Assembly: GCF_002128425.1 (NCBI RefSeq)
Contig: NZ_NESS01000006.1
Location: forward strand, 124,001-188,000
DNA: 64,000 bases
Source: Gottfriedia acidiceleris
GTDB lineage: Bacteria > Bacillota > Bacilli > Bacillales > Bacillaceae_G
Direction: 5' to 3'
In this document: piece after piece, positions 8,480 through 28,700 of the stretch
Layout of the letters: the number at the start of each line of letters is the position of its first letter
Numbering within the stretch: the stretch's first letter is position 1
The notes under the pieces: generated by a model
Databases searched by the model: none
Seen by the model: only the letters and a program-made list of their open reading frames with translations
Told to the model about the DNA's origin: nothing
Program-made: the position numbers and the translations under genes

Positions 8480-8579
8480 GTAAAATATAAACCATTTTTG
8501 AGAATTTTTCAATGATTTCACTAAAAAATAATATTGACAATATTAGTAAATAGACTTATATTTACCTAGTAACATTTAT

Positions 8580-8599: not shown

Positions 8600-8637
8600 A
8601 CTAATATTTGAAATACTAAATGAATGGAGGTCCGTTT

Positions 8638-10354: not shown

Positions 10355-10361
10355 CACAAAT

Positions 10362-10396
10362 AAGAGTAGGAATTTTCTATGATTCCTACTCTTTCA
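10362..10396 (+). terminator. Intra-operon hairpin after the binding-protein gene
   Basis: A perfect 12-bp stem, AAGAGTAGGAAT with ATTCCTACTCTT, closes an 8-nt loop between the lipoprotein and the first permease gene. The T-run is interrupted. Such hairpins often cause partial termination or protect the upstream mRNA so that the binding protein is made in excess. Confidence 0.6.
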
Positions 10397-10422
10397 TTCT
10401 ATACAGAGAAGATGAGAGGCTA

Positions 10423-11433: not shown

Positions 11434-12440
11434 TACAGCCTGCTATTATTAGAAAACAAAGGTTAATTCTGTTGATACTCTTTATACTTATTCTCTTAAC
11501 AATGTTTATAGGAATGGGTATGGGGTTTTCAGCAATACCATATAGTAGATTGCTTCCAACATTTTTAGGTGATGGTACATTTAAAGAAGAGTTTGTGATC
11601 TTTTCAATTCGATTACCTAGAATGATTATAACTTTAATGGCGGGAATGGCACTTGCATTATCTGGTGCAATTTTGCAAGGAGTAACACGAAATGATATGG
11701 CAGAGCCTGGAATACTAGGTTTTAATGCTGGTGCAGGAGTAGCTATTACAGTATTCTTTTTATACTTTCCAATTGAAGCAGGTTCGTTTGTTTATTTAAT
11801 CCCAATCGTTGGATTTTGTGGTGCCATTGTAACGGCAATTATTATTTACCTATTTTCTTATAAGAAAAATTCAGGATTACAACCTATAAGACTAGTTTTA
11901 GTAGGTATTGGTTTCTCGATGGCTCTTTCAGGAATCATGATTGTATTAATTTCATCTGCAGAACGTGCAAAAGTAGATTTTATTGCAAAATGGTTAGCAG
12001 GTAATATATGGGGAACAGATTGGCCGTTTATTTGGGCATTCTTACCTTGGCTAATTGTATTAATTCCGTTTACTTTATATAAAGCAAATACATTAAACCT
12101 TCTTAATTTAAATGAGCCTGTTGCAATTGGTGTAGGGGTTTCGTTAGAAAAGGAAAGAATTATTTTAATGTTAGTAGCAGTTGCATTAGCTGCATCTGCA
12201 GTTTCAGTAACAGGAGGAATTGCGTTTATCGGATTAATGGCACCACATATTGCTAAAAGCTTAGTTGGACCAAGAAATCAATTATTTATACCCATCGCTA
12301 TTTTAATTGGTGGATTATTACTATTAGTTGCCGATACAATCGGAAGAAACTTAGTCGATCCAGAAGGAATACCAGCAGGGATTATAGTAGCTCTAATCGG
12401 TGGACCTTACTTTGTATATTTAATTCTAAAAAAGACTTAA
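11430..12440 (+). CDS. FecCD-family iron-siderophore permease 2
   Basis: A 336-residue FecCD permease, paralogous to the preceding gene: SIRLPRMIITLMAGMALALSGAILQGVTRNDMAEPG near the N-terminus and GGIAFIGLMAPHIAKSLVG near residue 265. ATG overlaps the upstream stop (ATGA). Together with the ATPase at 8638 and the lipoprotein at 9434 it completes a ferric-siderophore importer. The siderophore cannot be told from sequence. Confidence 0.93.
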   Translation: MIQPAIIRKQRLILLILFILILLTMFIGMGMGFSAIPYSRLLPTFLGDGTFKEEFVIFSIRLPRMIITLMAGMALALSGAILQGVTRNDMAEPGILGFNAGAGVAITVFFLYFPIEAGSFVYLIPIVGFCGAIVTAIIIYLFSYKKNSGLQPIRLVLVGIGFSMALSGIMIVLISSAERAKVDFIAKWLAGNIWGTDWPFIWAFLPWLIVLIPFTLYKANTLNLLNLNEPVAIGVGVSLEKERIILMLVAVALAASAVSVTGGIAFIGLMAPHIAKSLVGPRNQLFIPIAILIGGLLLLVADTIGRNLVDPEGIPAGIIVALIGGPYFVYLILKKT

Positions 12441-12473
12441 AGACCAAATAAATGAGTTCAGTTGCTCAATAAA

Positions 12474-12521
12474 AAAAGACATTGTCTGAACTACACTATC
12501 GTTCAAACAATGTCTTTTCTT
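12474..12521. terminator. Bidirectional terminator between iron operon and xpt
   Basis: Stem AAAAGACATTGT / ACAATGTCTTTT with an inner GAAC/GTTC pairing; A-rich before and T-rich after, so it can serve the converging permease and xpt transcripts. Confidence 0.85.
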
Positions 12522-12526
12522 TATTC

Positions 12527-13194
<668 letters not shown>

Positions 13195-13230
13195 TCTTTC
13201 ATTCACTAGAGCAAAATGTCAGATGTGTTA

Positions 13231-13302
13231 CCACTCATAGTCGGTAAATTTACGGTTAACCGGTAGAAACTTGTGAGCCATATCCTCACTATTATACGAG
13301 TG
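13231..13302 (-). promoter_or_regulatory. Guanine riboswitch aptamer (purine class)
   Basis: Read on the minus strand, the element has P1 closing arms CACTCG/TGAGTG, the core ATATGGC..., CAAGTTTCTACC and CCGACTATG segments of the purine aptamer and the P2/P3 loops. The specificity base before UAUG is C (GACTATG), which selects guanine/hypoxanthine over adenine. With the terminator at 13135-13194 it forms an OFF switch for xpt. Confidence 0.95.
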
Positions 13303-13392
13303 AAATTTATAATTTTAATGAAACTATAACATGTTAATAGATTCTGGTCTAGCAATTAATAGGTGTAAATTATTAGCATTATTGAATCCTAC

Positions 13393-13959
13393 TTAATACA
13401 ATTTACAAATAAACTTAGTGAACTCCGTTACTAAATCCTGGTCATAAACAGTACCACTTAGCTTTTGAATTTTTTTTAACGATATTTCAATTGAACATTT
13501 CTTTCTATATGAACGGTCATTAGTTAGTGCGTCAAAACTATCAATGACTCTAACTACTTTCGAATAAAAATCAATTTCGTTACAACATAAACCTTCATAA
13601 CCAGTCCCATCAATATTTTCATGATGATAACGTACAGCATTTAAAATTTCATTATCATATAAAAAATCTTTTAATAAATCATATCCATAAATTGTGTGGT
13701 TCTTCATTAGATTCCACTCGAAATCAGTAAGAGGACCTTTTTTTGCGACGATTGAATTTGGTATTTTAAGTTTACCAATATCATGTACATAACCAATAAA
13801 ATGTAATTGATTGGAGTGATGTAAAGAGAGATCTAAATATCTACTGAATTTATACGACATTTCTCCCACACGCATCCCATGTAAGAAAGTATCATGATCA
13901 AGTTGACTTAATAGGTCAACTAACTCATTTGTGACTAATGTTGGCCTTTCTTTTATCAT
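13393..13959 (-). CDS. HD-GYP-like domain phosphohydrolase
   Basis: A 188-residue single-domain protein with HxxR-type opening (HGMRVGEMS), the metal-binding HD pair in GYVHDIGKLKIP, KNHTIYGYDLL, YHHENIDGTGYEG and DSFDALTNDRSYR, the order of HD-GYP cyclic-di-GMP phosphodiesterases. The GYP tripeptide reads GYE, so c-di-GMP specificity is uncertain. AAAGGTG precedes the ATG. It lies 34 nt downstream of the AtxA/Mga-like regulator on the same strand and may share its transcript. No sensor or membrane domain is fused to it. Confidence 0.85.
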   Translation of the reverse strand: MIKERPTLVTNELVDLLSQLDHDTFLHGMRVGEMSYKFSRYLDLSLHHSNQLHFIGYVHDIGKLKIPNSIVAKKGPLTDFEWNLMKNHTIYGYDLLKDFLYDNEILNAVRYHHENIDGTGYEGLCCNEIDFYSKVVRVIDSFDALTNDRSYRKKCSIEISLKKIQKLSGTVYDQDLVTEFTKFICKLY

Positions 13960-13993
13960 AAAATCACCTTTGAATGCTTATTCAAAATAAAAT

Positions 13994-15427
13994 TTATTTT
14001 AATAAATGTTCGATATGATTAATATCGCGCTGTGACAGAGTAGAACTAATTACCACAATTGGAACAATTTCTATATCAATTTGAAAATCAGCAATGATCA
14101 AGTCCAAACATAATTCACTAATCGTTTCAGGACTCAGTTCACCTTTTTTGAGTTCAACAAATTGGATTTTATCTCCAAATTCTTTTATTAGTTTAGCTGT
14201 TATATACTGACGTACACCATAACCTTCACTACTTAATAGTAGAACCCTCTTTTTTACTAATGATAATTTAATGATTACTGCTTGAATATTTAAAGTTATT
14301 TTAGCAATTACTTCATTATTTACTTCGGGGTATGAAAGGGATTTACACCAATTACGAAATACAGTTTTTACTTTATAAAATAACTCCGGATAACGCTTTT
14401 TAACATAATCAGAAATTAGACAAGAGCGATCAATTTTACCGTTTAAAAAAAGAACTAGGGAAAGTGCTTTAAATTGTTTTTGAAGAGTGAGAATAAAGTC
14501 ATTTTGATCATGTAGTTTTATACTTAGCTTTTTTTCGAGCATCGTAACGAGCTCATATAATTCTAAGTAATGTTTTTCATTTTTTTTATGATAGCTGTTT
14601 ATTATTTTATCTTGGCGTTCATCACCACAAGAGAAATAAGGGTATGCGGAAATCATTAGAGAAAGAGCGTTAATTTCATTTAATGGAATTGATACTTTAT
14701 AAATGTTTTGTAGTTGCACACAAATATCAGTTGCAATCGAAAAGAACTTCGAATCTTTAATATTGTTAGAAGGATTTAAGTCCAATTTTATATCACGATC
14801 CATTCTTTGAAGCATCGTACCAACATAATATATATATCTATATAAAGTAGGTGGAAATAAAAGTAAATTATTTTTTTCAGCTGACCTTGTAACTACTTTT
14901 TTTATGATAGAAAACGATAGTGAATCATAAGGCCATTTATTCGTATAGGAATATAGACCATATAGAACGTCACAGCATAAGATTCTTTTTTGAAGCTCAT
15001 TACCTACAATTTCAAGAGGTGCACGCTTTAAACTTAAATTATATGATTTCAATAAAGTGTCTACTCTTTCGAGAATTTTATAAACAGTATTATGATGTGT
15101 ATATAATACTTTGCCTAAATCATTAATATATTCAATCTCTTTGATTAGAATAAACATGATTACTTGAAGCGATAGAGAATTCTTTACAAAGAGTGAACGA
15201 ATTTGATCAAGCGAGGAATTAATTGGATTTTTTATATAAATACCTTTTCCTTTTATCGTTTCAATATGCCATCCATCTGGGAATATTGCATTAATTATTT
15301 GTATATCAGTTCTAATTGTTTTCTCAGTACAATTTAAATTTTTAGCAAGCTCCTCCGTTTTGAACCATTTTTCTTGACTGCTTAAAACATCGATTAAGTG
15401 TAATCTTCGTAAACTCGCCTTATCCAT
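13994..15427 (-). CDS. AtxA/Mga-type PRD-containing transcriptional regulator
   Basis: A 477-residue protein with two N-terminal winged-helix segments (about 5-60, with FKTEELAKNLNCTEKTIRTD, and about 75-130), two PRD-like helical domains (about 160-370) and a C-terminal EIIB-like domain (about 385-477, RVLLLSSEGYGVRQYI). Length and order match the AtxA/AcpA/AcpB group of Bacillus regulators, which are PRD proteins tuned by PTS phosphorylation. The EIIB-like Cys position is occupied by Ser (LLSSEG), as in other regulators of this type. ATG follows AGGAGATG. Upstream lie two large palindromes, possible operators. The target genes are unknown. Confidence 0.8.
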   Translation of the reverse strand: MDKASLRRLHLIDVLSSQEKWFKTEELAKNLNCTEKTIRTDIQIINAIFPDGWHIETIKGKGIYIKNPINSSLDQIRSLFVKNSLSLQVIMFILIKEIEYINDLGKVLYTHHNTVYKILERVDTLLKSYNLSLKRAPLEIVGNELQKRILCCDVLYGLYSYTNKWPYDSLSFSIIKKVVTRSAEKNNLLLFPPTLYRYIYYVGTMLQRMDRDIKLDLNPSNNIKDSKFFSIATDICVQLQNIYKVSIPLNEINALSLMISAYPYFSCGDERQDKIINSYHKKNEKHYLELYELVTMLEKKLSIKLHDQNDFILTLQKQFKALSLVLFLNGKIDRSCLISDYVKKRYPELFYKVKTVFRNWCKSLSYPEVNNEVIAKITLNIQAVIIKLSLVKKRVLLLSSEGYGVRQYITAKLIKEFGDKIQFVELKKGELSPETISELCLDLIIADFQIDIEIVPIVVISSTLSQRDINHIEHLLK

Positions 15428-15563
15428 CTCATCTCCTACTTTGATCTAAAATAATTTTTTTACTAACTAAAATAAATCAACATTTTTTGTGATAACACTC
15501 ACATAAAATGTTGTTGAGATAATGTTTTCAAAATTATTTTAAACTTTGATGATTGTTAAGGAT

Positions 15564-15692
15564 ATGACTATTTTTACCGTTAAAAACGGTAAAAAATATA
15601 TACTAATCGACAATGTCCCTTTAAATGATGAAGAGCATGCGTCGATTAATGAAATTTTATATATTAACTGTTTTTACCTATCAAAAAGGTAA
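15564..15692 (+). CDS. Possible 42-residue small protein spanning two palindromes
   Basis: ATG at 15564 opens a frame of 42 codons (MTIFTVKNGKKYILIDNVPL at the N-terminus, ending CFYLSKR). Composition is protein-like, but the ribosome binding site (AAGG, 2 nt before ATG) is poorly placed. The 5' and 3' ends of the frame lie inside the two palindromes at 15571 and 15671, so the frame may be a chance or decayed gene. Low confidence. Confidence 0.25.
   Translation: MTIFTVKNGKKYILIDNVPLNDEEHASINEILYINCFYLSKR
15571..15595. repeat. 25-bp palindrome, copy 1
   Basis: Arms TTTTTACCGTT and AACGGTAAAAA around AAA. It shares its outer arms TTTTTACC/GGTAAAAA with the palindrome at 15671. Candidate operator for the neighbouring AtxA/Mga-like regulator or hairpin of a leader RNA. 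Confidence 0.7.
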
Positions 15693-15695
15693 AAA
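15671..15695. repeat. 25-bp palindrome, copy 2
   Basis: Arms TTTTTACC and GGTAAAAA around TATCAAAAA; same outer arms and same total length as the palindrome exactly 100 bp upstream. Confidence 0.7.
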
Positions 15696-15819
15696 TTATC
15701 ATATGAAACTTTAATAAGCAAGGCTATAATTTGTTTTGAAAAGGAACTCGGTTAATTTGTGATTTTTTTCGGATGTGATCATGATTGGTGCTCTAAATTG
15801 AGAAATGAGGAGGGAAATG

Positions 15820-16263
15820 ATGGTTATAATAATACTGCTTTTTATCCTAGGAAAACTTTTGCTAGTTCAGTCTTTTTTACATAGTCGAATTACTTTGTTA
15901 GGAGTATTATTTAGTATTTTTATTGTTGTTTTGCTATATTTACTTCCAATCTTTTTAAAATTCAATAAAAGAGAACGATATATTGGTTATAGTTTTACTT
16001 CATTAGTGGTTGGAACAATATTATTAATTTGTACTGTTTATGAAAGGTATGCTGTTTTTGTTTCTTACACTCTAAATCAAAAAGAAGAAATCTCCAACTC
16101 AATATTCTCTTTTTTTATGATAGGTGACTTATTTTTCATTTTCGATTTTTTATTACTAATGTACTTCTTACTATTTAAAGTACATAAAATAAAAATACGA
16201 ACAAGTAAAAATAATGGTCAATCAGATTCTCCACTTAAAAACATTACGCTTAATGAAGATTAA
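15820..16263 (+). CDS. Four-to-five-segment membrane protein, possibly LtaS N-terminal-domain-like
   Basis: GAGGAGGG at 15807-15814 fits best with the ATG at 15820, giving 147 residues; ATGs at 15805 and 15817 are also in frame. Four or five hydrophobic segments are followed by a polar tail (KIKIRTSKNNGQSDSPLKN). The stretch YERYAVFVSYTLNQKEEISNSIFSFFMIGDLFFIFD recalls the membrane domain of lipoteichoic acid synthases just before the sulfatase domain, which is absent here. This similarity is a memory-based impression. It has its own terminator and no clear partner. Confidence 0.65.
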   Translation: MVIIILLFILGKLLLVQSFLHSRITLLGVLFSIFIVVLLYLLPIFLKFNKRERYIGYSFTSLVVGTILLICTVYERYAVFVSYTLNQKEEISNSIFSFFMIGDLFFIFDFLLLMYFLLFKVHKIKIRTSKNNGQSDSPLKNITLNED

Positions 16264-16291
16264 AGAGTATAGAAAAATTGAATGACTTACG

Positions 16292-16321
16292 AAAACCTCA
16301 CTTTTGAAGTGAGGTTTTTTG
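16292..16321 (+). terminator. Rho-independent terminator
   Basis: AAAACCTCACTT / AAGTGAGGTTTTTTG hairpin 30 nt after the membrane protein stop. It sits within a wider inverted repeat (ACTTACGAA at 16285 with TTCGTAAGT near 16335). Confidence 0.9.
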
Positions 16322-16517
16322 CATTTTTAATCAGTTCGTAAGTTTACTAAGGAGTAATAAATTGGGCAATTAAATCGGTAACAATGCCCAAGTACTCAAC
16401 ATATTTTGTTGTTGAGAGTCTGCGTTTTAGTAGATTCAAATTAGGGACTCGTATTTATTTTTTATAAGTACGTTATATTTTTATTCGCTTTCAAATTTTA
16501 TGTAGGAGGTTATAAAA

Positions 16518-16739
16518 ATGTATGATTTTCAAAGAGAGCTTCAACAATTAAACGTTGATCAGTTTCAAGCTAGTCAAGTAGTTCCATGGGATTATAATCA
16601 GTATCAAAACCAAGATGCTCGAGTTTGCTTTGCATGCTTTTTCCCTATTTTTAGTTGTTTTGGTTGTGGAGGTTGCTTCGGTTGTGGAGGCTGCGGAGGT
16701 TGTTTCCGTTGCGGAGGCTGCGGTCGCTGTCACCGTTAA
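16518..16739 (+). CDS. Heterocycloanthracin/sonorensin-family azole RiPP precursor
   Basis: A 73-residue precursor: leader MYDFQRELQQLNVDQFQASQ then VVPWDYNQY, typical of the heterocycloanthracin/sonorensin family, and a Cys/Gly/Phe-rich core with 11 cysteines at 37, 40, 47, 50, 53, 56, 59, 62, 65, 68 and 71. From residue 47 on, Cys recurs every third residue (Cys-X-X repeat with GG, FG, FR, GR fillers). The cysteines are expected to be cyclised to thiazoles by the YcaO/SagB enzymes encoded just downstream. TAGGAGG precedes the ATG. A hairpin after the stop separates it from the maturation genes. In the family as first described in B. anthracis and B. cereus, the precursor is encoded far from the maturation operon; here it is adjacent. 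Confidence 0.93.
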   Translation: MYDFQRELQQLNVDQFQASQVVPWDYNQYQNQDARVCFACFFPIFSCFGCGGCFGCGGCGGCFRCGGCGRCHR

Positions 16740-16780
16740 TTGTAATGTTGCATAAAAACTATGAGTCTATATAGACAATC

Positions 16781-16806
16781 AACCCCTACTGATCTTTGTA
16801 GGGGTT
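16781..16806 (+). terminator. Hairpin between RiPP precursor and maturation genes
   Basis: A GC-rich 9-bp stem, AACCCCTAC with GTAGGGGTT and an 8-nt loop, 42 nt after the precursor stop. The T-run is poor (ATCTAGTT), which fits partial read-through, so precursor mRNA can exceed that of the enzymes. Confidence 0.75.
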
Positions 16807-16912
16807 ATCTAGTTATGTTATGACATAAGGAATACAAAATATACATAGGATTATGAAGAAAGTATTTGTGAAATTCAATATACAACTCACGGAATCGAAG
16901 GGGTTGAAAAGG

Positions 16913-18859
16913 ATGTCAAAATTGAATCCATCTGCACGGCTAAAGGTTAACCGAGATACTTTTTTTGTACCTGATTCAAATGGAGGTGTCTATTTTAGGA
17001 ATAACTTAAGTTCATTTAGAATGGAAGGTGCTTCTGTTTACCAGTGGATCGAAAAGTTACTTCCTATGTTTAACGGTGATCACTCATTAGACAATTTAAC
17101 AAATGGATTGCCTGACCAATACCGAGATAGAGTATTTGAAATTGGTGAAATTTTATATAAAAATGGCTTTGCGCGGGATGTAAGTAAGGATCATCCACAT
17201 CAATTATCTGAAGATATTTTAAACAAGTATGCAAGTCAAATTGAGTTTTTAAATTGTTTTGGGGAGTCTGGGTCCTATCGTTTTCAAACCTATCGCCAAT
17301 CCAGAGTGTTGGCAATTGGTTCTGGAACAATTGTCACTTCGCTAGTTTCAGCATTATTAGAGTCGGGGTTAGCGAAATTCCATCTTTTAATAACAAGTAC
17401 AGAAAATAACGATAAAAAACGTATAAAAGAAATTGTAGACAATGCACAGAAGACGGATAGTGAAGTCGAAGTTGTATTAATGAAGAGAGAGAAGCTTTCC
17501 TTACAAGAGATTGTATCAACTTTTGATTCGATTTTATACGTATCAGAAGATGATCGTGTTTATGAGCTTAAAATGCTTAACGAGATTTGTAAAAGAGAGA
17601 AAAAGAGATTCATTCCAGCTATTTCTTCACAAAAGATCTGTATGGCAGGACCACTAGTGACTTCAGATTCTGAAGCTTGCTTTGAATCAGCATGGAGAAG
17701 CGTTCATCAAAACATACTCTGTAAAGAGGAAGGCAACCAACCATTGTCTTCAATTACATCGGCAATGTTGGCAAATATAATGGTGTTCGAGCTATTTAAG
17801 GATATTACAAAGTCACGCGAGACAGAAAAAACTAATCAGGTTTATATTATTAATCAAGAGACGCTAGAGGGCAGTTGGCACACATTCTCTCCTCATCCAC
17901 TAGTGACTGGGAAAGCAAAAGCTAAAATAGTTCGTAATTTTAAAGAAAAGCTAGAGCAAAACAAACCTAGAGGAGATCAAAGTAAGTTATTAACTTATTT
18001 AGGTCAGTTCAATTCACAAGAAACGGGATTATTTCACGTTTGGGATGAGGGCGAATTAAATCAACTTCCGTTAGCTCAATGTCGGATTCAAGTAGTAGAT
18101 CCTCTTACAGAAGGCCCTGTAAAACTATTAACAAGTACGATTTGTACTGAGTTAACTCATGAAGAAGCACGAATAGAGGCGGGGCTTACTGGAGTTGAAA
18201 TGTATGTATCCCAAATTGCCGGTCAACTTATTAAGAACTCAGAGACAGATGTTGTAGAGTCTGTAGAACCTGGGGAATACATCGCAATAGCTACTGGTCA
18301 AACTTTTTCAGAAAGTATTTGTAGAGCCCTAAAAAAATATTTGTCTGAAGAGCTTAATAAACAAACGAGTGTTCATAAAAATCATATTCAGGAAATAAAC
18401 GCGATAAAAATTGAAGATGATTGTGCTCAATTTTATTTACAAACATTAAATACAATACATGAATCTCCAAAAATAGCATTAGGAAAAGAGATTTGTGGAT
18501 TTCCAGTAGTCTGGGTTGGTACAAAAAAAGGTTGGTATAGAAGCGTTGGTTTAAATTTAACGATTGCCTTACAAGAAGCACTTAAACAAGTACTTAAGGA
18601 GTCACAAAATAAAACCCCACTACTTGCATCAACAGCTATCCAGAGTTCGTCAGTTTTAGTGGAAGAACAGCAAATACCCGAAATTTTTATTCCTGAATCT
18701 AATCGTGCAAAACATACTGATTTATTAATCTCAGCGATGGATATTTTAAAACAGAATAATATGCAAATATTAACATTGGAGTTTGTGCTTGAATCGATTA
18801 ATATAGATGAACTTGCGGGAGTTTATGGTGTCTTGTTAAGAGAGGTGAGCTCGATTTGA
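16913..18859 (+). CDS. ThiF/E1-like azole bacteriocin maturation protein
   Basis: The ATG at 16913 is preferred (GAAGGGG 9 nt upstream; residues then read MSKLNPSARLKVNRDTFFVP), giving 648 residues. It matches the putative thiazole-containing bacteriocin maturation proteins of Bacillus heterocycloanthracin loci: a winged-helix leader-binding-like N-terminus (about 1-110), a degenerate E1/ThiF nucleotide-fold region (RVLAIGSGTIVTSLVSALL near 130) and a long C-terminal region of unknown fold. It probably helps bind precursor or the cyclodehydratase. Its stop overlaps the start of the YcaO gene (TTGA), which implies translational coupling. Confidence 0.88.
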   Translation: MSKLNPSARLKVNRDTFFVPDSNGGVYFRNNLSSFRMEGASVYQWIEKLLPMFNGDHSLDNLTNGLPDQYRDRVFEIGEILYKNGFARDVSKDHPHQLSEDILNKYASQIEFLNCFGESGSYRFQTYRQSRVLAIGSGTIVTSLVSALLESGLAKFHLLITSTENNDKKRIKEIVDNAQKTDSEVEVVLMKREKLSLQEIVSTFDSILYVSEDDRVYELKMLNEICKREKKRFIPAISSQKICMAGPLVTSDSEACFESAWRSVHQNILCKEEGNQPLSSITSAMLANIMVFELFKDITKSRETEKTNQVYIINQETLEGSWHTFSPHPLVTGKAKAKIVRNFKEKLEQNKPRGDQSKLLTYLGQFNSQETGLFHVWDEGELNQLPLAQCRIQVVDPLTEGPVKLLTSTICTELTHEEARIEAGLTGVEMYVSQIAGQLIKNSETDVVESVEPGEYIAIATGQTFSESICRALKKYLSEELNKQTSVHKNHIQEINAIKIEDDCAQFYLQTLNTIHESPKIALGKEICGFPVVWVGTKKGWYRSVGLNLTIALQEALKQVLKESQNKTPLLASTAIQSSSVLVEEQQIPEIFIPESNRAKHTDLLISAMDILKQNNMQILTLEFVLESINIDELAGVYGVLLREVSSI

Positions 18860-20799
18860 ATTCAACGGTTACCATTTTTGGAGAGGGATTATTAAGTAAA
18901 TACACATCAGAAATTCTTTTAAATAAATATAAAATAGTTCACCAGAAAGATTTAGAGTCGAAGGTTTCTGAGGATACTAGTTTAATACTTTTTTTGGATG
19001 ACGCATGGAACCCTAAAGTATATGAAAAAGCAGATGAAATTTTTAGAACAGGAACTGTTCCATGGCTACGTGCTTGTGTTTCATTTGGAGAAGGTGTAAT
19101 CGGACCTTTAGTACATCCAGGGCAAAAAGGATGTATAAAGTGTGCCGATTTTAGACGTCTAATGGCTGGTAGAGAGCGCAGAGAAATGCTAGAAATAGAT
19201 CATCAGTTATTAGATGGTGATGGAATATCGGACGATGTATGGGGAACAAGAACGGGACTTTTACAAATGGCTTACTTAATTGCTGCTGAAGTAGAGAAAT
19301 TTATGAACGGTAAAGAAACTCGTCTAGAGGAACGAATTTTTTTATTAAATATGAAAACATTCAAAAGCTCTAATCACTTTTTTTTACCAAACCCGCTCTG
19401 CCCAATATGTGGTGAATTAGAAGATGATACTTCTGATTCGGCGATTATTTCACTTGAGCCTAGTATGAAAGTTTCTCCAACTAGTTATCGTAGTCGTTCA
19501 ATGGATGAATTAAAAAAAGTGTTAGTTAATGACTATTTAGGTCAAAAGACAGGTTTTTTAAATGGTAAGGCATATGATCTAACCACTCCATTTGCAGATG
19601 TGGTTGTAAACTTACCGTTACTTCAAGGGGATGAAGGTACAGCAGGACGTACATTATCATATGAATCTAGTGAATTAACTGCCATTTTGGAGGGCCTAGA
19701 AAGGTATTGCGGTCTTACTCCACGAGGAAAAAAAACGGTAGTACATGATAGTTATAACAACGTAAAAGATTATGCAATTAATCCCGAAATTGTTGGTACG
19801 CATTCAAAAGAGCAATATGCTCTGCCGCATTTCCCATTTAAGGCGTTTAATCCTAAACGGAAGATCGATTGGGTATGGGGCTATTCATTTATGAAGGAAA
19901 AGCCGATTCTTGTACCAGAGTTGCTTTCATACTATAGTCTAGGGTGCGGTCACGGTTATGTGTATGAAACTTCTAATGGATGTGCTTTAGGAGGCAGCTT
20001 AGAAGAAGCTATATTCTACGGTATTTTGGAAATTGTTGAACGGGATTCATTCTTAATGACTTGGTATGCTCAGTTGCCTCTTCCTCGACTTGATCCAAAA
20101 TCGGCTAAAGATCAAGAGCTCGATTTAATGATTGAACGCATGCGCTTGGTCGGAGGATATGATCTTCATTTATTTAATTCGACGATGGAGAATGGAATTC
20201 CAAGTATTGTTGCCATTGCAAAAAATCGAAAAGAACATGGATTAAATCTCATTTGTGCAGCAGGTGCTCATCTAGATCCGGTTCGGGCAGTTAAAAGCGC
20301 AGTGCATGAGTTAGCTGGAATGATGTTAACATTGGATAAAAAGTTTGAAGAAAATTACGTTCAAAATATGAAAATGCTTTTAGATAATAACCTTGTTAAG
20401 CAAATGGATGACCATGGAATGTTATATGGTTTACGTCAAGCAGAGGAGCGTTTGAAGTTTTTATTAGATGATAACCGTCCATTAAAAACTTTTGAGGAAG
20501 AATTTAAATGGAATACGAACCATCTGGATTTGACGAATGATCTTAAGGATATTCTTCAAGTATTTAAACAATTAAATCTTGATGTGATTGTAGTTGATCA
20601 AACTACACCTGAAATCAAAAGAAATGGATTATCTTGTGTAAAAGTCTTAATTCCAGGGATGTTGCCTATGACATTCGGCCATCATCTAAAGCGATTGAAT
20701 GGACTTGATCGAGTGTTGAAAGTTCCTGTTAAAATGGGCTATACGAAGAAGCCGCTAAAGCCGGAGCAGCTCAATCCATATCCGCACCCGTTCCCATAG
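18856..20799 (+). CDS. TOMM cyclodehydratase: leader-peptide-binding domain fused to YcaO
   Basis: Starts at TTG 18856 behind GAGGTGAGC and overlaps the upstream stop. The 647-residue protein has an ocin-ThiF-like N-terminal part (about 1-200) with two Cys pairs, CIKC and CPIC, that likely hold zinc, and a YcaO domain (about 215-647) with the ATP-binding segments LEGLERYCG, EAIFYGILEIVERDSF and AVKSAVHELAG. It ends in the proline-rich PYPHPFP tail needed for YcaO catalysis in azole-forming enzymes. It activates amide backbones with ATP so that Cys side chains form thiazolines in the precursor encoded at 16518. Confidence 0.95.
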   Translation: MNSTVTIFGEGLLSKYTSEILLNKYKIVHQKDLESKVSEDTSLILFLDDAWNPKVYEKADEIFRTGTVPWLRACVSFGEGVIGPLVHPGQKGCIKCADFRRLMAGRERREMLEIDHQLLDGDGISDDVWGTRTGLLQMAYLIAAEVEKFMNGKETRLEERIFLLNMKTFKSSNHFFLPNPLCPICGELEDDTSDSAIISLEPSMKVSPTSYRSRSMDELKKVLVNDYLGQKTGFLNGKAYDLTTPFADVVVNLPLLQGDEGTAGRTLSYESSELTAILEGLERYCGLTPRGKKTVVHDSYNNVKDYAINPEIVGTHSKEQYALPHFPFKAFNPKRKIDWVWGYSFMKEKPILVPELLSYYSLGCGHGYVYETSNGCALGGSLEEAIFYGILEIVERDSFLMTWYAQLPLPRLDPKSAKDQELDLMIERMRLVGGYDLHLFNSTMENGIPSIVAIAKNRKEHGLNLICAAGAHLDPVRAVKSAVHELAGMMLTLDKKFEENYVQNMKMLLDNNLVKQMDDHGMLYGLRQAEERLKFLLDDNRPLKTFEEEFKWNTNHLDLTNDLKDILQVFKQLNLDVIVVDQTTPEIKRNGLSCVKVLIPGMLPMTFGHHLKRLNGLDRVLKVPVKMGYTKKPLKPEQLNPYPHPFP

Positions 20800-20822
20800 G
20801 TGGTGTATTAGGAGGTAATTGG

Positions 20823-22397
20823 ATGAGTTTACAAACATTTCTACACAATCTTCATTTTGATATTGAAAAGGCAAATCAATCGGATTGGGAAGTTGATTGG
20901 GAAGATGCTCCTCTAACTTATAAACTTTATAAAGATTTACCTACTATTCCACTTTCTCTTAACGTTCCATTATCCTTAAAAGAAAAAAGGAACGCATTCG
21001 AGCCGAATTTAGATGAAATTGGCTATTTTCTATGGTATGTATATGGATTAAACCAATTAGCTCAAACAGCATTTACTTCCGGTTCCAACGAAATAGTTAA
21101 TATGATGTCTTCAAACCGAAGATTCATCCCCTCTGGTGGAGGATTGTATCCGAATGAATTGTATATATATCTTAAGTCCAATCAAGTTTCTTCGGGGATT
21201 TATCATTATGATGTAGCTAGGCATTGCTTAGTTTTATTAAGAGAAGGAAATTTTGATTCTTATGTATCAAGAGCTTTAGGAAATAGGTGTGATCTACCAA
21301 AGTGTTTTAGTACTATTTTTATTTCAACAATGTTTTGGAAAAATTTCTTTAAGTACAATAATTTTTCTTATCGGCTCCAAGGGTTAGATTGCGGAGTACT
21401 AATTGGACAGATTTTAGAGATGGCTCAATGCTTTGGGTTTAAAGCTGGAGTATATTACCAGTTTCTAGATCAAGCTATCAACCACTTAATCGGTGTAAAC
21501 GAACGTGAGGAAAGTGTGTACGGAGTAATTCCGCTCTCTATTGAAGAATCTACCTTGATTTCAAAAGATAATATAAAAAGTAAAAATTACAATTCAACGG
21601 ATCTAAGCAGAGAGTTACAGGCAATTTCACATAAATATTTAGTAAAATCGAAAAAGATTAGAGAGTTCCCGATGCTAATTAAACTGAATAAAGTATCGAT
21701 GATCGAATCGACTCAAACATTTAGAAAAGTTGATGAAAGTGTGGACTCTTTAGATGTACGACATCGAATAATTTTACCTAAAGTGGATCGTCTATCCTAT
21801 GATTTAGCTAGCGTATGTAAAGAACGGTTTTCACCTGAACTGGACTATGTTTTACGTCCTGTTAGTCAAATAAACTTAGCAACATTACTTAAAGAGGCGA
21901 CAGCATCCTTCTCATATATAAATGATTTAGATGACTCCTTTAAAACAAATAAAAACCGGCTAAAGTTATATTTATGTTTGTATAACGTTGAAGGGATTAA
22001 CAATGGTGCTTATTATTATGATGATCAAACGCATACGCTAGTACAAATAAAATTAGGCGATCATCGTATGCAACTCCAAAGTGGAATGAATGCTCCTACC
22101 GTCAATTTATTCCAAGTGCCAATCTGTATACATGTAGTGGATAATAAGGAACATATAAAATCAACACATAGTTATAGAGGCTACCGGATTCAACAGATGG
22201 AAGCTGGCATAATGATTCAGCGTTTACTAATAATCGCATCAGCATTAGGAATGGGGGGGCATCCACTACTTGGATATAATGTAAAATTATGCGATGAGTT
22301 ATACCAATTAGAAGAACTAGGAAAAACAAGTTTAATTCAAATTCCAATAGGTCATTATCGAAATCGACCTTGGTTAAAAGGAAATTTGCATAGTTAA
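20823..22397 (+). CDS. SagB/ThcOx-family FMN-dependent azoline dehydrogenase
   Basis: A 524-residue protein of two nitroreductase-like halves. The first (about 95-245) holds RRFIPSGGGLYPNELYIYL, GIYHYD and a CGVLIGQILEMAQCFGF segment; the second (about 335-520) repeats this with GAYYYDDQTHTLVQI and RGYRIQQMEAGIMIQRLLIIASALGMGG. Such proteins use FMN to oxidise thiazolines to thiazoles. It begins 23 nt after the YcaO stop with AGGAGGT upstream, and ends the maturation operon. No transporter, protease or clear immunity gene follows. Confidence 0.92.
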   Translation: MSLQTFLHNLHFDIEKANQSDWEVDWEDAPLTYKLYKDLPTIPLSLNVPLSLKEKRNAFEPNLDEIGYFLWYVYGLNQLAQTAFTSGSNEIVNMMSSNRRFIPSGGGLYPNELYIYLKSNQVSSGIYHYDVARHCLVLLREGNFDSYVSRALGNRCDLPKCFSTIFISTMFWKNFFKYNNFSYRLQGLDCGVLIGQILEMAQCFGFKAGVYYQFLDQAINHLIGVNEREESVYGVIPLSIEESTLISKDNIKSKNYNSTDLSRELQAISHKYLVKSKKIREFPMLIKLNKVSMIESTQTFRKVDESVDSLDVRHRIILPKVDRLSYDLASVCKERFSPELDYVLRPVSQINLATLLKEATASFSYINDLDDSFKTNKNRLKLYLCLYNVEGINNGAYYYDDQTHTLVQIKLGDHRMQLQSGMNAPTVNLFQVPICIHVVDNKEHIKSTHSYRGYRIQQMEAGIMIQRLLIIASALGMGGHPLLGYNVKLCDELYQLEELGKTSLIQIPIGHYRNRPWLKGNLHS

Positions 22398-22440
22398 TAC
22401 ATTTTGGTTTTAAGATTGTTAATTAAAAAGTTCAAAACTA

Positions 22441-22475
22441 AAACAAGGATACTTTCTGGTATTCTTGTTTTTTTG
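22441..22475 (+). terminator. Terminator of the RiPP maturation operon
   Basis: AAACAAGGATAC pairs with GTATTCTTGTTT (one G-T pair) and is followed by TTTTTTG, about 45 nt after the sagB-type gene. Confidence 0.88.
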
Positions 22476-22677
22476 TTACAGTTTATAACATATATAAAGA
22501 ATAAACTTAGAGAGTAAATTTTGAAGTAATGAATCTACAAAACCCAATGGTAGCGCGGGCTAAATGCTCAATCGACATATATAGACATACAAAAGTCTCG
22601 GAAATTAGATCGAATAGTTCTTTCGAATTAAAATTATATAGTATACTTAATTTTAGTTATTATCTAAATATAAAATA

Positions 22678-22704
22678 AAAAAACCTTCCAAAAGAAGGTT
22701 TTTT
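22678..22704 (-). terminator. Terminator of the small membrane protein gene
   Basis: AAAAAACCTTC / GAAGGTTTTTT hairpin with a CAAAA loop, just downstream of the minus-strand gene ending at 22719; T-rich on both sides, so it may also stop leftover plus-strand transcripts. Confidence 0.85.
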
Positions 22705-22718
22705 ATTTTTGAAAAAAT

Positions 22719-22886
22719 TTAGCGTAAAAATCCCCAAAGAAGAATTGGCGTAATTAAAAAAGTATAAAGTAAAAACTGAAGTATAATAATCGGTGCAATT
22801 TCTTTAAAATCTTCAGCCCAAAATTTAGCAACACCAGCAGTTATAGCTAGTTCTAATAAGGGACCAAAGCAAATTAACCATTTCAT
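22719..22886 (-). CDS. 55-residue membrane protein next to the RiPP operon
   Basis: ATG at 22886-22884 with AGGAG upstream opens a 55-codon frame: MKWLICFGPLLELAITAGVA at the start, then KFWAEDFKE and a second hydrophobic helix ending LLWGFLR. Two membrane segments with a short charged loop. It converges on the bacteriocin operon and has its own terminator. No family is recognised. Its size and position make it a candidate immunity or unrelated small membrane protein; this is a guess from context. Confidence 0.65.
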   Translation of the reverse strand: MKWLICFGPLLELAITAGVAKFWAEDFKEIAPIIILQFLLYTFLITPILLWGFLR

Positions 22887-23290
22887 ATTTTATTCTCCTG
22901 TATATAGATTCTTGGATGGATTTGCCTTTTTTGAGAAAATTCTTCCTAAAAAAATCTTTAAACAAATAGGTTATATGTCTACCAATAAAATTATATTAAC
23001 ACAATTTTAAAATTGTTATAAATACTATTTTTTAACATAACATATAATTAAAAAAAATGTCAGATTATAAAACTTTTTGTATAATTAAATCGTCTATTTT
23101 AAGTAAAACAAAATATAAAAATTTTTATGGTTAGGTTTTGCTTATTGTTTAATGTTGATTTTTAGTAGTTTGATTAAAAGAATTCGTGACGATACTAGAG
23201 CAATACAACTTTGATCAACTATTAAATTTTTTCGAAACAATCAATTGAAGAAATGATAAAAAGGATAGAAATAATAGGAGGAGAAAACCA
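22887..23290. other. Intergenic region before the carboxypeptidase gene
   Basis: About 400 bp of very AT-rich sequence holding the divergent promoters of the small membrane protein and the carboxypeptidase. No gene, hairpin or operator was convincing. Confidence 0.5.
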
Positions 23291-24097
23291 TTGTCCAGAA
23301 GTGAAAAAAATCGTAGAAAGAAACCAATTATAGGAATTGCAATTTCTTTAGTATTAGTAGCTGGTGTTGCAGGTACACTTTATGAAAAAAACAAAGAACC
23401 TAATACGATTGTTATAAAGAAGAATGCTAAAGTTAAAACAGATATTGTAAAAAATGATAACGTACTTAATTTTCCAGATTATTATAAAACAACGAAAGAA
23501 GATGAATCTGGATTATTAGAAGTGTTAAACGTTGATTCAAATTTAGTATTAGTTAATAAAGATCGAAAGTTACCAGATGGTTATGAACCAAACGATCTTA
23601 TCTATCCATCAATAAAATTAAATGGAGCAGTAAAAGAAAAAACTAGAATGAGAAGCGAAGCTGGACATGCATTAGAGAAGTTATTTGCTGGTGCATCTTC
23701 AGATGGTTATACGTTAACTGCAATATCTGGATATCGTTCGTACGATCGCCAAGTTTCTTTATACAATAATTACATTTCTACACATGGCGAGGAATGGACT
23801 AAAGCATATAGTGCACTTCCAGGAACGAGTGAGCATCAGACTGGATTAGCGATAGATGTTTCTTCACCGTCTTTTGGTAATGCTTTAGAAGTTGATTTTG
23901 CTAAAACGCCTGAAGGAAAATGGTTAGCAGAACATGCACATGAATACGGCTTTATTATTCGTTATCCAGAAGATAAAGTAGACATAACAAACTATCACTA
24001 TGAGCCATGGCATATTCGATACGTTGGAAAAGAATACGCTACTTATTTATATACGCATCATCTTGCACTTGAAGAAGCGATGCCAGCTAAAAAATAA
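23291..24097 (+). CDS. VanY/LdcB-like D-alanyl-D-alanine carboxypeptidase (peptidase family M15B)
   Basis: Starts at TTG behind AGGAGGAG. The 268-residue protein has a basic cytoplasmic tip (SRSEKNRRKKP), one membrane anchor (about 13-30) and an extracellular zinc peptidase domain: GYRSYDRQVSLY, the zinc ligands in SEHQTGLAIDV, and the catalytic/zinc segment YEPWHIRYVG. It trims the terminal D-Ala (or acts on tetrapeptides) of peptidoglycan stems. Length and layout match Bacillus DacY/VanY-type enzymes. Single-gene unit ended by a strong terminator shared with the convergent regulator. Confidence 0.92.
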   Translation: MSRSEKNRRKKPIIGIAISLVLVAGVAGTLYEKNKEPNTIVIKKNAKVKTDIVKNDNVLNFPDYYKTTKEDESGLLEVLNVDSNLVLVNKDRKLPDGYEPNDLIYPSIKLNGAVKEKTRMRSEAGHALEKLFAGASSDGYTLTAISGYRSYDRQVSLYNNYISTHGEEWTKAYSALPGTSEHQTGLAIDVSSPSFGNALEVDFAKTPEGKWLAEHAHEYGFIIRYPEDKVDITNYHYEPWHIRYVGKEYATYLYTHHLALEEAMPAKK

Positions 24098-24102
24098 TAA
24101 TA

Positions 24103-24139
24103 AAAAGGCATGTCTCATTTAGTTTGAGACATGCCTTTT
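24103..24139. terminator. Bidirectional terminator
   Basis: A perfect 15-bp stem, AAAAGGCATGTCTCA with TGAGACATGCCTTTT and a 7-nt loop, between the convergent carboxypeptidase and XRE/TPR regulator genes. Confidence 0.92.
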
Positions 24140-24144
24140 ACTAT

Positions 24145-25365
24145 CTACTGATTGATTAGTGTATTCGCCATACTTAATGCTTTACGGGTTTGTTTTTGTT
24201 TAATGTAATAGTTAAACAATTCTTTTTCCGACTGATTGATTAAATAAACGAAACCTACTTTTTTGAAAAATGGTAATGAATATTCGGCCAAGTATTGATG
24301 ATATTCTTGTTCTTTTTTCAAGATTAAAAGGTCTAATAAGGTGAATAGGTTGATAAAAAGTTTGTCGTTTTTCTTGATAGCTATATCAAGCCCTTCACTT
24401 ACAAACTGTAATAACTCACCCTTAGGTAATAGTTCACCATAGTATGAGCTTCGTATAAATCCTTCTAGAGAAAGTAAATACGGTACAGACTTAGAATCTT
24501 TCAATTTCATAGACTCAAAATAGTATTTTTTTGCTAAATCATAATTTTTTCTTCGGTAATATTCGAAGGCCAAATTATGATACACCCTTGCTTTTCGGTC
24601 TGATGATCTACAAATTTCACAGCTTTGAATTAAGTTTTCAAATCTTTTAATCGTCTCAGTAAATTCTTCATTATCTTTAACTTGTATTAGCATAAGCATT
24701 TCTGAATCGATTACTCGAAGATAGGAATTAATATTTTTAAAATACTGACGTGCTTTGTCAGCATAAAAATAAGCCATTACGGGCATTTCATTAGAATGGT
24801 AAGCTGATGCTAAATGATAATAATATTCTTCATTTGTATACTCTGCATTATTAATTTTCTTCAAAACTTTCATAGCAAGTAAAGGTTCATGGTTCGTTAA
24901 GTGATAAATACCTAACACATGTCTAAAAAGATTTATTTCATAAGGTGACAATTTATGCTTCATTTTTTTTATTTCATCAATGAGCTCTTTTGCTTCATTC
25001 ATTAAATTACGAATTAATAAATATCTGATACGAAGTAAATTATATTGATTAATATAATTTGAAATTTGAATCAACTCTTCCTGCTCAAGTTCAAGGTTGA
25101 TTTCTTCTATTTCGTCGAATAGCTGCATTACAATAGCCTGCTGCCAACTATTTATACGCATTTTTATATTTTTTAATTTTGAAATCTCTTTTTCGATTTT
25201 TATTCCAAGTCGATCAGATAGTAGGGTTATTATTTCATGTGCATACTCAGTTTGAGATCTTTCTATTTTACTAATATGAGTACTAGAACAAATTCCTTTC
25301 CCTAACTGTTCTTGTGTCATCTGAGATTTTTCACGATAATATTTTATGATTTTCCCCTCATACAT
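24145..25365 (-). CDS. XRE-family regulator with TPR-like domain (RNPP/PlcR-like architecture)
   Basis: A 406-residue protein with an N-terminal helix-turn-helix (about 6-60, SQMTQEQLGKGICSSTHISKIE) followed by a purely helical region with TPR-like helix pairs (for example AFEYYRRKNYDLAKKYYFESM near 275). This is the layout of peptide-responsive regulators such as PlcR, NprR and Rgg, where the TPR part binds a secreted signal peptide. No PapR-like peptide gene lies downstream; a terminator follows at once. It is divergent from the large S8 protease gene, a possible target. Whether a peptide controls it is inference. Confidence 0.85.
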   Translation of the reverse strand: MYEGKIIKYYREKSQMTQEQLGKGICSSTHISKIERSQTEYAHEIITLLSDRLGIKIEKEISKLKNIKMRINSWQQAIVMQLFDEIEEINLELEQEELIQISNYINQYNLLRIRYLLIRNLMNEAKELIDEIKKMKHKLSPYEINLFRHVLGIYHLTNHEPLLAMKVLKKINNAEYTNEEYYYHLASAYHSNEMPVMAYFYADKARQYFKNINSYLRVIDSEMLMLIQVKDNEEFTETIKRFENLIQSCEICRSSDRKARVYHNLAFEYYRRKNYDLAKKYYFESMKLKDSKSVPYLLSLEGFIRSSYYGELLPKGELLQFVSEGLDIAIKKNDKLFINLFTLLDLLILKKEQEYHQYLAEYSLPFFKKVGFVYLINQSEKELFNYYIKQKQTRKALSMANTLINQ

Positions 25366-25484
25366 AACAAATTTCTCCCTTTAGAAAATCTTTTTATTAA
25401 AAGTTTGAGCAGTAGAAAACCAGCAATTCCCCCAAGTGAATAATAAAAATTTCTATTGAATTTAAATGATTTTCTTCCAAACAT
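25344..25484 (-). CDS. Possible 46-residue small protein overlapping the XRE/TPR regulator start
   Basis: ATG at 25484-25482 opens a frame MFGRKSFKFNRNFYYSLGG, followed by a hydrophobic stretch IAGFLLLKLLI and basic residues. It overlaps the first 22 nt of the regulator in another frame. No ribosome binding site is visible. It could be chance; it is kept because a short amphipathic peptide beside a TPR regulator is worth noting. Confidence 0.2.
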   Translation of the reverse strand: MFGRKSFKFNRNFYYSLGGIAGFLLLKLLIKRFSKGRNLLCMRGKS

Positions 25485-25765
25485 AATCTATAAATCAACA
25501 AATTTAGTAAAATATGAGACTTTAACTGTAAAAAGAATAATTAATTATGATTTTTAATGGCGAAAAATAGAATATAAATGAAAATTTTGTTTGAAATAAC
25601 CCCCATTTACCATGAAAAATAGCTAAATTACAATTAAATTGTTAGACTTATCTAATTATTCTAATTCTTATTTTAACATTTTTTTTATCGGATGAATGAT
25701 ATAGATTTATCCACTTAATCATTTTTTTACTTATTTAACTAAAGCAAGTAGAAGGGAGCATGCAA
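25485..25765. other. Intergenic region between regulator and S8 protease
   Basis: Very AT-rich divergent promoter region. No clear operator palindrome was found; the ribosome binding site AAGGGAG of the protease lies at 25752-25758. Confidence 0.45.
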
Positions 25766-28700
25766 ATGAAGATTAGAAAGAAGAAAATGCTAAACGTAAT
25801 GGTAACAAGTGTATTAACTACAAGCTTTTTTACATCTTATTTAATACCTCAAAAAAAATCTTATGCAACTTCGAACTCTGTAGAATCCACCTTAAAGGGA
25901 CTGACAGATGAGCAAAGACAATCGATTAAGCGCTTAACACCTCAAGAAGGCTTTGTAATCGATCCTAGTTTATTATCTTTAAAAGATAAATCCGCAAATA
26001 TCATTGTTGAACTGAAGACTTCTCCAATCGAAAATGATCAAAATGGGAAATTAAAGGAAGTATCCAAAAGTAAGAAAGAAAAAATTAGAGGTGAACAAGA
26101 GTTCTTTAAAAAGCGTTTAATGGAAATATGGAACAAGAAACATCAAAAAGCAGAAGTAAATCAGCTAGCTAAAGAGAAAACAAATCAATTTCAAATCAAA
26201 CAATCATTTGAAAATGTATTTAATGGAGTGGCGATGACAATTCCTACAGATCAAATTAATTTGCTTCTTGAAACAGGTGTTGTCAAGCGAGTATGGAAGG
26301 ATAACAAAGTTAGTGTGCCGATCAATGAGCTTAATGATAATGCATCTACAAAAAATAAAAGTATTCCACCAGCTTTACCACTTTTAGGTGTAGATCGTTT
26401 ACATAACGAGGATATAAACGGAAAGGGGATTAAAGTAGGGGTACTTGATACAGGTATCGATTATAACCATCCGGATTTAAAAGATGCTTATAAAGGTGGT
26501 TATGACTTTGTAGATAATGACACGGATCCAATGGAGTCTACACCTGCTGATCTTGCCAGTTCTGGTGAGCCTGCAGAAGTTGATGGTCGTCCATTTGTTA
26601 CAGAGCATGGAACGCATGTAGCAGGCACGATTGCATCAAACCCACGTAATAATGTTGAATATGCGATGACTGGTGTTGCACCAAATGTTGATTTATATGC
26701 ATATCGTGTTTTAGGTCATTATGGTTCTGGATATGATTCTTGGATTATTGCTGGAATAGAAAAGGCCGTAGAAGATGGCATGGATGTGATTAATCTTTCT
26801 TTAGGAAACAGTAATAATTATTCCTTAGATGCTACAGCAGTAGCGATTAATAATGCAGCTTTGCAAGGAGTAATTCCTGTTGTAGCAGGAGGTAACGCAG
26901 GTCCTACGCCAGGTTCGCTAGGCTCCCCTGGTTCATCACCGTTAGCTATTACTGTTGGAGCAAGCGATGTTCCTACAGATATACCAACTGTACAAACGAG
27001 TATAGGTAAGGTTTCTATTAAAAATGAGCTAATGGCTCACGGCTTAGGGAAAGATTATTTAAGCATTATGAATAAAAAATTGAATGTAGTAGATGTAGGA
27101 ATCGGTGCCGAGGAGGATTATGCAAATAAAGATGTAAGTGGCAAGGTGGCGTTAATATCACGCGGTACTTTATCTTTTGATGAAAAAATCCGACGTGCTC
27201 ATGAAAAAGGAGCTGCAGCGGTATTAATTTATAACAATATAGAAGGAGAGATTCCTTTCTTCTTAGGTGAAAACTTTGGATATGTACCAACCTTTAAAAT
27301 GAGTCAAGAGGAAGGGAAAAGTATTCTTGATGAACTTAATAAGAATCCGGATGTTAAATTAAAAATGACAGATTTACAGTCAAATATGACATCTGGTGAC
27401 GTATTAGCAGACTTTAGTTCTAGAGGACCTGTAAATAATAATTTTGATATTAAACCAGATGTTGTGGCACCAGGGGTTTCTATTTTCTCAACTGTTCCAG
27501 AATATATTAATAATCCCGGGGAAGAAACTGATTACTCAACTAGTTACGCGAGCATGGATGGAACTTCAATGGCTACACCGCATGTTGCGGGTGTTGCTGC
27601 ATTATTATTACAATCCCATCCGGAGTATACTGTTGCAGATGTAAAAGCGGCACTAATGAATACGGCGGATCCATTAAAAGGAAGAACATATAATGTAAAC
27701 GAAGTTGGCGCTGGACGAGTAGATGCTTATGAAGCAGTTCATAACACGACTTTAGTAGAAGTACAAAATAAAACATACACACTGGATGAAAATGGATTTA
27801 AAAAGCAAATCGATGATGTATCAGGTTCATTACCTTTTGGAAGTATTACACAAACAAGCGAGGAACAAAATCGAACTACATCAATTAGTATTAAAAACTT
27901 AAGCAATAATAATGAAACATATCATACAAGAGTAGAATTTTTAACGATCGATGATGTTTCAAAGGATGCTAGTAAAAATGGAGTAAAACTCGAATTGCCT
28001 TCTAACGTAACTGTTAATGGAAATGAAAGTGTCAATATAGACGCCAAAGTAACAATACCAAAATCTGCTGAGTTTGGCATATATGAAGGATATATTTATG
28101 TAGAAAATGAATCTAAAACGGAGGAGTATCAAATACCTTTCCATGTTCGATATGCGACAAGCGGCTTTGCAAAGGTTGATTTCTTTAAGAATGCAATAAC
28201 GAATGACCTAAGTAACTTCCACCCTGATATACTACCTTTTACACCAGTTACGATTAGATTAAACAGTGAAATGAAAAAAATCGATGTTGTTGTTAGCGAT
28301 CTAGCTGGAAAACCAATTGGACTCTACGGCACTTTCGATTTAGAAGGTGCAAATGTTGATACGGACTACTTAGTCATGTACGGCTTTTCAGGTGATGTAA
28401 AATTATTTACAGGTGACCCAAATAAGCCATTATCACTAGAATATGAAACATTAGATGAGGGTAAATACATTGTTTCTTATATCGGAACAGATGCAGATGG
28501 AAAAACCTATAAAGTAGACAATGATATGGTAATTGATAATACACCTCCAAAAGTAGTATTTGATAAAAAGACAGGCATCAATGAAATTTCAGATGCAGAT
28601 TTAACAACTGAAACAAACCCAATGGATGGTAAAGACTACAAAGCTTACTGGGTCCACGGGAATGTATATGACGATACAATTGATTATTTAAAGAGTAGAG

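Follow-up and report, generated by a model that had tools for sequence, protein, structure and literature searches.

We analysed a 64,000-nucleotide stretch of Gottfriedia acidiceleris DNA (assembly GCF_002128425.1, contig NZ_NESS01000006.1, positions 124,001 to 188,000; hereafter the window), which carries a heterocycloanthracin (HCA) cluster made of a gene for a cysteine-rich precursor peptide followed by the genes for an F protein, a YcaO cyclodehydratase and a SagB-type dehydrogenase. We propose that this is a standard HCA cluster whose transcription is probably part of the sporulation programme of the mother cell. The cluster has a conserved gene content and order, and two deeply conserved promoter-like blocks, hereafter P1 (upstream of the precursor) and P2 (between the precursor and the F gene). 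The gene set is that of an ordinary HCA family member in its usual layout. The new part is the sporulation-type promoter-like elements P1 and P2, the more informative features of the locus, which were overlooked by the first-pass annotation of this DNA; P1 lies outside its coordinates.

All four proteins exceed the cut-offs of their NCBIfam models, and F, YcaO and SagB are open frames on the strand of the precursor (the forward strand). The precursor (16518-16739), a 73-residue peptide with 11 cysteines, scores 58.9 bits against TIGR03601 (cut-off 35) and displays both the conserved leader and the Cys-Xaa-Xaa core array of the family. The F protein (16913-18859), an ocin-ThiF-like leader-binding partner, scores 729 bits against TIGR03693 (cut-off 561.9), and PbtF was the sole PDB chain that it retrieved at a significant E-value. 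The following 647-residue protein (18856-20799) matches both TIGR03604 (415 bits) and TIGR03882, as a fused E1-like/YcaO cyclodehydratase (D protein) of the SagD-type C/D fusion; its PDB relatives are TruD, LynD and MusD. The SagB-type flavin mononucleotide-dependent dehydrogenase (20823-22397) comprises two nitroreductase-like halves, matched by TIGR03605 in two stretches (217 bits, cut-off 78.4), and its PDB relatives include McbC as well as 3eo7, a putative nitroreductase. A terminator-like hairpin (22440-22471, forward strand) lies 3' of SagB, at the end of the unit. The genome has one precursor and one F gene, and among the named F proteins listed the nearest one, at 92%, is from Gottfriedia acidiceleris. 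The longest F frame begins at 16853; the TIGR03693 match starts at its residue 21, position 16913, and in a relative (L179) a 2-nucleotide insertion 5' of the equivalent ATG disrupts the longer frame, so that 16913 is the most likely start and the precursor-to-F gap is most likely 173 nucleotides. The identity of the precursor, its place beside the maturation genes on the same strand and this distance of 173 nucleotides had all been proposed by the first-pass annotation and are borne out here. Among close species (L093-L105), the Cys-Xaa-Xaa array varies in length, largely by whole tripeptides, and the leader is nearly fixed.

Because a terminator-like hairpin (16291-16319, forward strand; fold z score -6.2) ends the upstream gene for a 152-residue protein, the precursor requires its own promoter. 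When ten genomes of the genus were aligned, a strongly conserved block stood out before the precursor amid more variable DNA. This block, P1 (16360-16419, forward strand), recognised by its conservation in relatives, is a putative precursor promoter of the sigma-K/GerE type. It consists of a GerE-like 12-mer, AATTGGGCAATT (16360-16371), which fits RWWTRGGYNNYY and occupies logo positions -40 to -29; a candidate -35 element, AACA (16380-16383); and a candidate -10 element, CATATTTTG (16400-16408), 17 nucleotides past the AC, all on the forward strand. The left arm of P1 equals RWWTRGGYNNYY, the GerE consensus, for which we found no printed form in the open-licence literature. The consensus for Bacillus subtilis sigma-K, as published, is KCACM / GCATANNNTA with a gap of 14-16 nucleotides, which corresponds to 16-18 nucleotides between AC and CATA; P1 of the window reads AC-N17-CATATTTTG, with an A in place of the K and C that precede AC in the consensus.

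The conservation of P1 was quantified on 97 precursor upstream regions from 95 genomes, 89 of which were anchored on CATA to give the logo AAA(A/T)T(A/G)GGC-nn-TT-nn-ATCAGTAACAATACCCA-n9-CATA-n-TTTGTTG-nn-GAGAGT, located mostly 80-150 nucleotides before the start codon. In this logo the -35 AC stands 17 nucleotides before CATA, and it is present at that place in 79 of the 89 anchored rows. The pattern AC-N16-18-CATAnnnT occurs in 85/97 precursor upstreams and in 30/32 genera, as compared to 4/135 control upstreams, the controls coming from the 18 loci of the window's taxonomic family only, with orthologues included, and the related HCA loci being likewise non-independent; dinucleotide shuffles gave a mean of 5.0 and a maximum of 11. 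All 85 pattern carriers have a TRGGY/RCCYA site nearby (shuffle mean 1.2; controls 0/135). The GerE-like 12-mer is found at its logo place in 46/89 anchored rows, and within 300 nucleotides in 55/97 relatives versus 2/135 controls. Scored over 2,176,720 positions of 80 named loci (the best 80 of 304, overlapping the training genomes of the profile), the P1 profile exceeds 10 bits at 75 positions, in 74 of these loci, two of the positions being in the locus L187, which has two precursors. These 74 include 14 of the 16 loci of Paenibacillus, a genus that belongs to another order than Gottfriedia. One genus (g24) has ten genomes with a strong F match, of which eight have 5-10 kb between precursor and F and two (G142 and G362) have them adjacent; in these eight genomes P1 stays with the distant precursor, and the g24 F genes carry their own conserved upstream block in 9/9 aligned genomes (G362 was left out of the alignment).

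The second element, P2 (16825-16851, forward strand), lies between the precursor and F, is ATAAGGAATACAAAATATACATAGGAT in the window and resembles a sigma-E-type promoter, ATA-N16-CATAGGAT. The spacing is the same as in a mapped sigma-E promoter, ATA-N16-CATATATA, and the published sigma-E consensus reads TYATATTT / KCATANANTN; the -35 of P2 in the window is CATAAG, not TATATTT. The pattern ATA-N16-18-CATAnnnT was found between precursor and F in 73/94 members of the order sample and in 2/135 controls, with a mean of 1.8 and a maximum of 7 in shuffles that keep base composition only; it occurs in 60/80 named loci. The P2 logo is approximately ACATAAGGGACAAATTG-nnn-TACATAnGAT. Its GGGACAA word resembles a SpoIIID site, the consensus of which is WWRRACARNY; RGACAA occurs in 74/94 intergenic regions (shuffle mean 10.5), yet not in the window's own P2. 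We gave no weight to the composite GACA-N9-12-CATAnnnT (74/80 named loci, 65/94 order members, 1/135 controls, likewise judged against composition-only shuffles), because Gottfriedia can match it in a different register.

The hairpin noticed between precursor and enzymes by the first-pass annotation (16781-16806, forward strand) is real: its stem has 9 base pairs and a centroid energy of -15.5 kcal/mol, and among 200 shuffles a single one reached an equally good fold. In 79/97 relatives the stop codon of the precursor is followed by a stem with 7 or more base pairs, of which at least 4 are G-C (over 15 shuffled sets the mean was 2.9 and the maximum 5), which supports, as a possibility, the suggestion that it sets the precursor-to-enzyme ratio. 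A T-run accompanies the stem in 44 of those 79 relatives. Since the stem of the window has none, a full terminator is less likely here than a partial barrier or a stabiliser. The hairpin is probably an attenuator or an mRNA-stabilising stem. Together, the hairpin and P2 would fit a separate control of substrate and enzymes.

As a positive control for spore-coat promoters, we used the CotZ-family genes of the same 19 family genomes. The alignment of 17 CotZ upstream regions yielded a common block, CAGTAACCG-n-AATATnnTA, upstream of which lies a site of the GCCCATTT type. The word CAGTAAC followed by a spaced nATAnnnT occurs in 19/19 CotZ upstreams, 34/97 HCA precursor upstreams and 0/135 controls; for a GerE-type 8-mer, counted in both orientations, the corresponding figures are 19/19, 79/97 and 16/135. 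In the genome of the window, CAGTAAC-N16-18-ATAnnnT has 17 matches, 11 of them within open reading frames (ORFs). Among the six others, three precede a gene of at least 150 codons within 120 nucleotides, namely the genes for YsxE, CotZ and oxalate decarboxylase. Both YsxE and CotZ represent named families of spore-coat proteins, and oxalate decarboxylase is a coat protein as well; only YsxE and oxalate decarboxylase are new matches, because CotZ helped to define the CAGTAAC word. In B. subtilis, SigK and GerE jointly control the cotY gene.

Several observations weigh against a sporulation-type control of the cluster. The promoter assignment is read from DNA sequence. P1 is missing in 6/80 and the sigma-E pattern of P2 in 20/80 named loci, and the B. 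cereus group, not being identifiable among the family genomes, lies outside the P1 and P2 counts. As for the window itself, the -10 of P1 ends in TG where the consensus has TA, its -35 word is CGGTAAC rather than CAGTAAC, and its P2 lacks the GGACAAA word of other genera. The strict sigma-K pattern fails on CotZ (0/19) and on CotX (0/7 scorable genes), the CotZ match having appeared only under a relaxed pattern, and a GTAAC search before eight CotX genes, of which a spaced -10 was no part, gave matches in two. Genome-wide, the composite patterns are hardly above their reversed controls (6 versus 6; 17 versus 12). Furthermore, a B. thuringiensis proteome that contained sporulation proteins reportedly did not contain an unspecified "bacteriocin", and sonorensin, a predicted HCA family member, is reported to be bactericidal.

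From the above data we propose the following order of events. Sigma-E, perhaps with SpoIIID, would first transcribe F, YcaO and SagB from P2. After engulfment, sigma-K and GerE would switch on the precursor from P1, and the hairpin would limit the read-through from the precursor into the enzyme genes. As expected for the HCA family, F would hold the leader, YcaO would close the cysteines to thiazolines and SagB would oxidise these to thiazoles. The polythiazole peptide would exit at the lysis of the mother cell, either bound to the spore or as a free antibiotic. Since the producing mother cell is doomed, it would require neither an exporter nor an immunity gene. More tentatively, HCAs in general might be developmental ribosomally synthesised and post-translationally modified peptides (RiPPs) rather than primarily bacteriocins, the sigma-K/GerE-driven peptide being destined for the interior or the surface of the spore coat and the enzymes being pre-loaded under sigma-E. 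A developmental role is favoured by the near-universal presence of the cluster in the taxonomic family and by its coat-type promoter; an antibiotic role is favoured by the reported activity of sonorensin. In the passages available from the open-licence PubMed Central literature, we found no link of the HCA family to sigma-K, GerE or a sporulation-type promoter.

The distribution of the cluster was examined in 19 genomes, with 18 loci, of the window's taxonomic family and in an order sample of 397 genomes. Precursor and F are both present in 18 of the 19 family genomes. No precursor was found in the 16 genomes of the order sample devoid of a strong sigma-E/K match, as compared to 94 of the 381 others (p = 0.016, with a threshold set after seeing the data and no correction for kinship). 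Among the 110 genomes with a strong F match (a tally that leaves out G100), the precursor lies within about 1.5 kb in 100 (88 + 12) and 4-10 kb upstream in 9; 17 of the 110 have no TIGR03601 match, and our own profile detected a precursor-like ORF in 17/17 of them (weakest E-value 4.7e-4). The precursor is within 1.5 kb in 78/80 named loci. Twelve weak F rows (59.3 bits or less; six genomes had nothing else) were dropped, and so were, before the set of 97 upstream regions was built, G290, G100, the weak second matches of G206 and G330, and an overlapping piece in G002. F is rare on plasmids, with 7 matches in 72,556 records, one of which covers at least 80% of the query. A fragment of an F gene, covering 44% of the query, lies on the small Paenibacillus larvae plasmid NZ_CP019653.1 (8333-9196), with no listed feature beneath. 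In Ectobacillus panaciterrae (L187:4746-5852), two different tandem precursors, each preceded by a promoter element, are associated with one enzyme set.

A different explanation is that the cluster encodes a classical stationary-phase bacteriocin. Growing or stressed cells would express precursor and enzymes, export the peptide through a shared transporter and thereby kill competitors, and the conserved block would be the site of another regulator. In line with this view, an HCA-family precursor and BC1248-50 are reported to be up-regulated in B. cereus biofilms; the same holds for all putative secondary-metabolite regions and for sporulation genes. We consider this explanation rather unlikely, since P1 has the spacing published for sigma-K in 85 of the 97 upstreams and 34 of them have the CotZ -35 word and spacing. 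Moreover, the 18 family loci have no transporter, protease or immunity gene in common: among the ORFs of window positions 8000-26000, only F, YcaO and SagB have a match in 18/18. Being nearly fixed in the family and almost never found on plasmids, the cluster is also unlike a strain-variable weapon. Matrix-assisted laser desorption/ionisation (MALDI) analysis of Paenibacillus dendritiformis colonies detected another RiPP and no encoded HCA; this point is weak because the conditions may have been wrong, and a sporulation-limited product or many other causes would fit it.

We regard as very improbable that the upstream block is a structured regulatory RNA, i.e. a riboswitch-like leader instead of a promoter. 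The inverted repeats in 16360-16419 are RNA-like, and 16395-16435 folds with a z score of -4.35. We rejected this reading because the region attains the gathering score of no Rfam family and because an alifold of 44 transcribed leaders yields no structure (E = 0); moreover, the conserved positions run from about -41 to +19, with a fixed spacing and a free spacer. Equally hard to credit is a decaying, non-functional cluster kept by chance. One genus member (L095:11109-12443, in the complete genome G006) has a YcaO frame shorter than those of the other 17 family loci, and that gene may be disrupted. Against such decay, the frames of F and SagB are full-length in 18/18 and that of YcaO in 17/18 family loci, and YcaO is 93-97% identical across the eight closest genus members, the flanking intergenic DNA being far more variable. 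A cluster expressed in the sporulating mother cell stays our preferred interpretation.

The one-locus layout, which the first-pass annotation held to be special on the grounds that the precursor had originally been described as always remote from the maturation genes, turned out to be common. Among the 397 order genomes, 79 of the 81 precursors above the cut-off immediately precede F, in the same orientation, and the remaining two are about 10 kb away; the identical arrangement is thus widespread in the family, which the first-pass annotation itself had named as a finding that would refute its view. The original description itself (Haft 2009) reports a remote precursor in B. anthracis and B. 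cereus and an adjacent one in B. licheniformis. In Cox 2015, 14 HCA precursors are at most 10 kb from a D protein, and the cyclodehydratase is stated to have been reconstituted in vitro; a 2024 paper on Parageobacillus and Saccharococcus describes the four-gene locus in all of its taxa except two. We therefore rejected the novelty of the layout.

The first-pass annotation saw no transporter, leader protease or immunity gene. The ten scanned proteins, which include a VanY-type carboxypeptidase (23291-24097), comprise no transporter and no obvious leader protease; permease-like ORFs (10423-12440) and a subtilisin-like ORF (25760-29920) lie outside of the scan. Among the 18 family loci, VanY has matches in 10 and permeases in 12. 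We found no support for the 152-residue membrane protein (15805-16263) as an immunity factor: it has four transmembrane-like segments, no family match and its own terminator, which separates its gene from P1, and it is matched in 10/18 family loci, all in the genus of the window. Further upstream, a regulator of the AcpB/EbpR/MafR family (13994-15427) adjoins an HD-domain protein; most loci of the genus retain both next to the cluster. Elsewhere in the window, a purine riboswitch (13218-13319) and a T-box leader (44883-45142), both on the minus strand, score above the Rfam gathering thresholds.

HCAs are widespread in spore-forming Bacilli, and in the literature passages available we found no natural product of this family with a settled role. 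If our proposal is correct, the shared sporulation promoter tells when and where to look for one, namely in late sporulating cultures, in lysates and on spore surfaces, and the timing of expression would account for the missing exporter and immunity genes. A linear azole-containing peptide (LAP) would then join the few RiPPs tied to development.

With respect to known systems, the gene content of the cluster is identical to that of the heterocycloanthracin/sonorensin family, with the same four components above the cut-offs, in the usual order, and the same leader and Cys-Xaa-Xaa core. The B. cereus-group members in print differ from it by their remote precursor. The F-dependent thiopeptide systems (PbtF and TclI) likewise use an F protein with a leader-binding domain; they differ from the present cluster in that no thiopeptide dehydratase or macrocyclase occurs among the ten scanned proteins. 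The spore-coat genes of the CotZ/CotY and YsxE families resemble 34 of the 97 HCA precursors in having the CAGTAAC -35 word and the -10 spacing, and the CotZ set also has the GerE-type 8-mer. CotZ, CotY and YsxE are coat proteins that are not known to carry such a modification, unlike the product of an HCA cluster, which would be a modified peptide. In this respect a developmental HCA would find its counterpart in SapB of Streptomyces, a RiPP that serves development and not primarily killing, SapB being a lanthipeptide of the aerial hyphae made by enzymes unrelated to those of HCAs.

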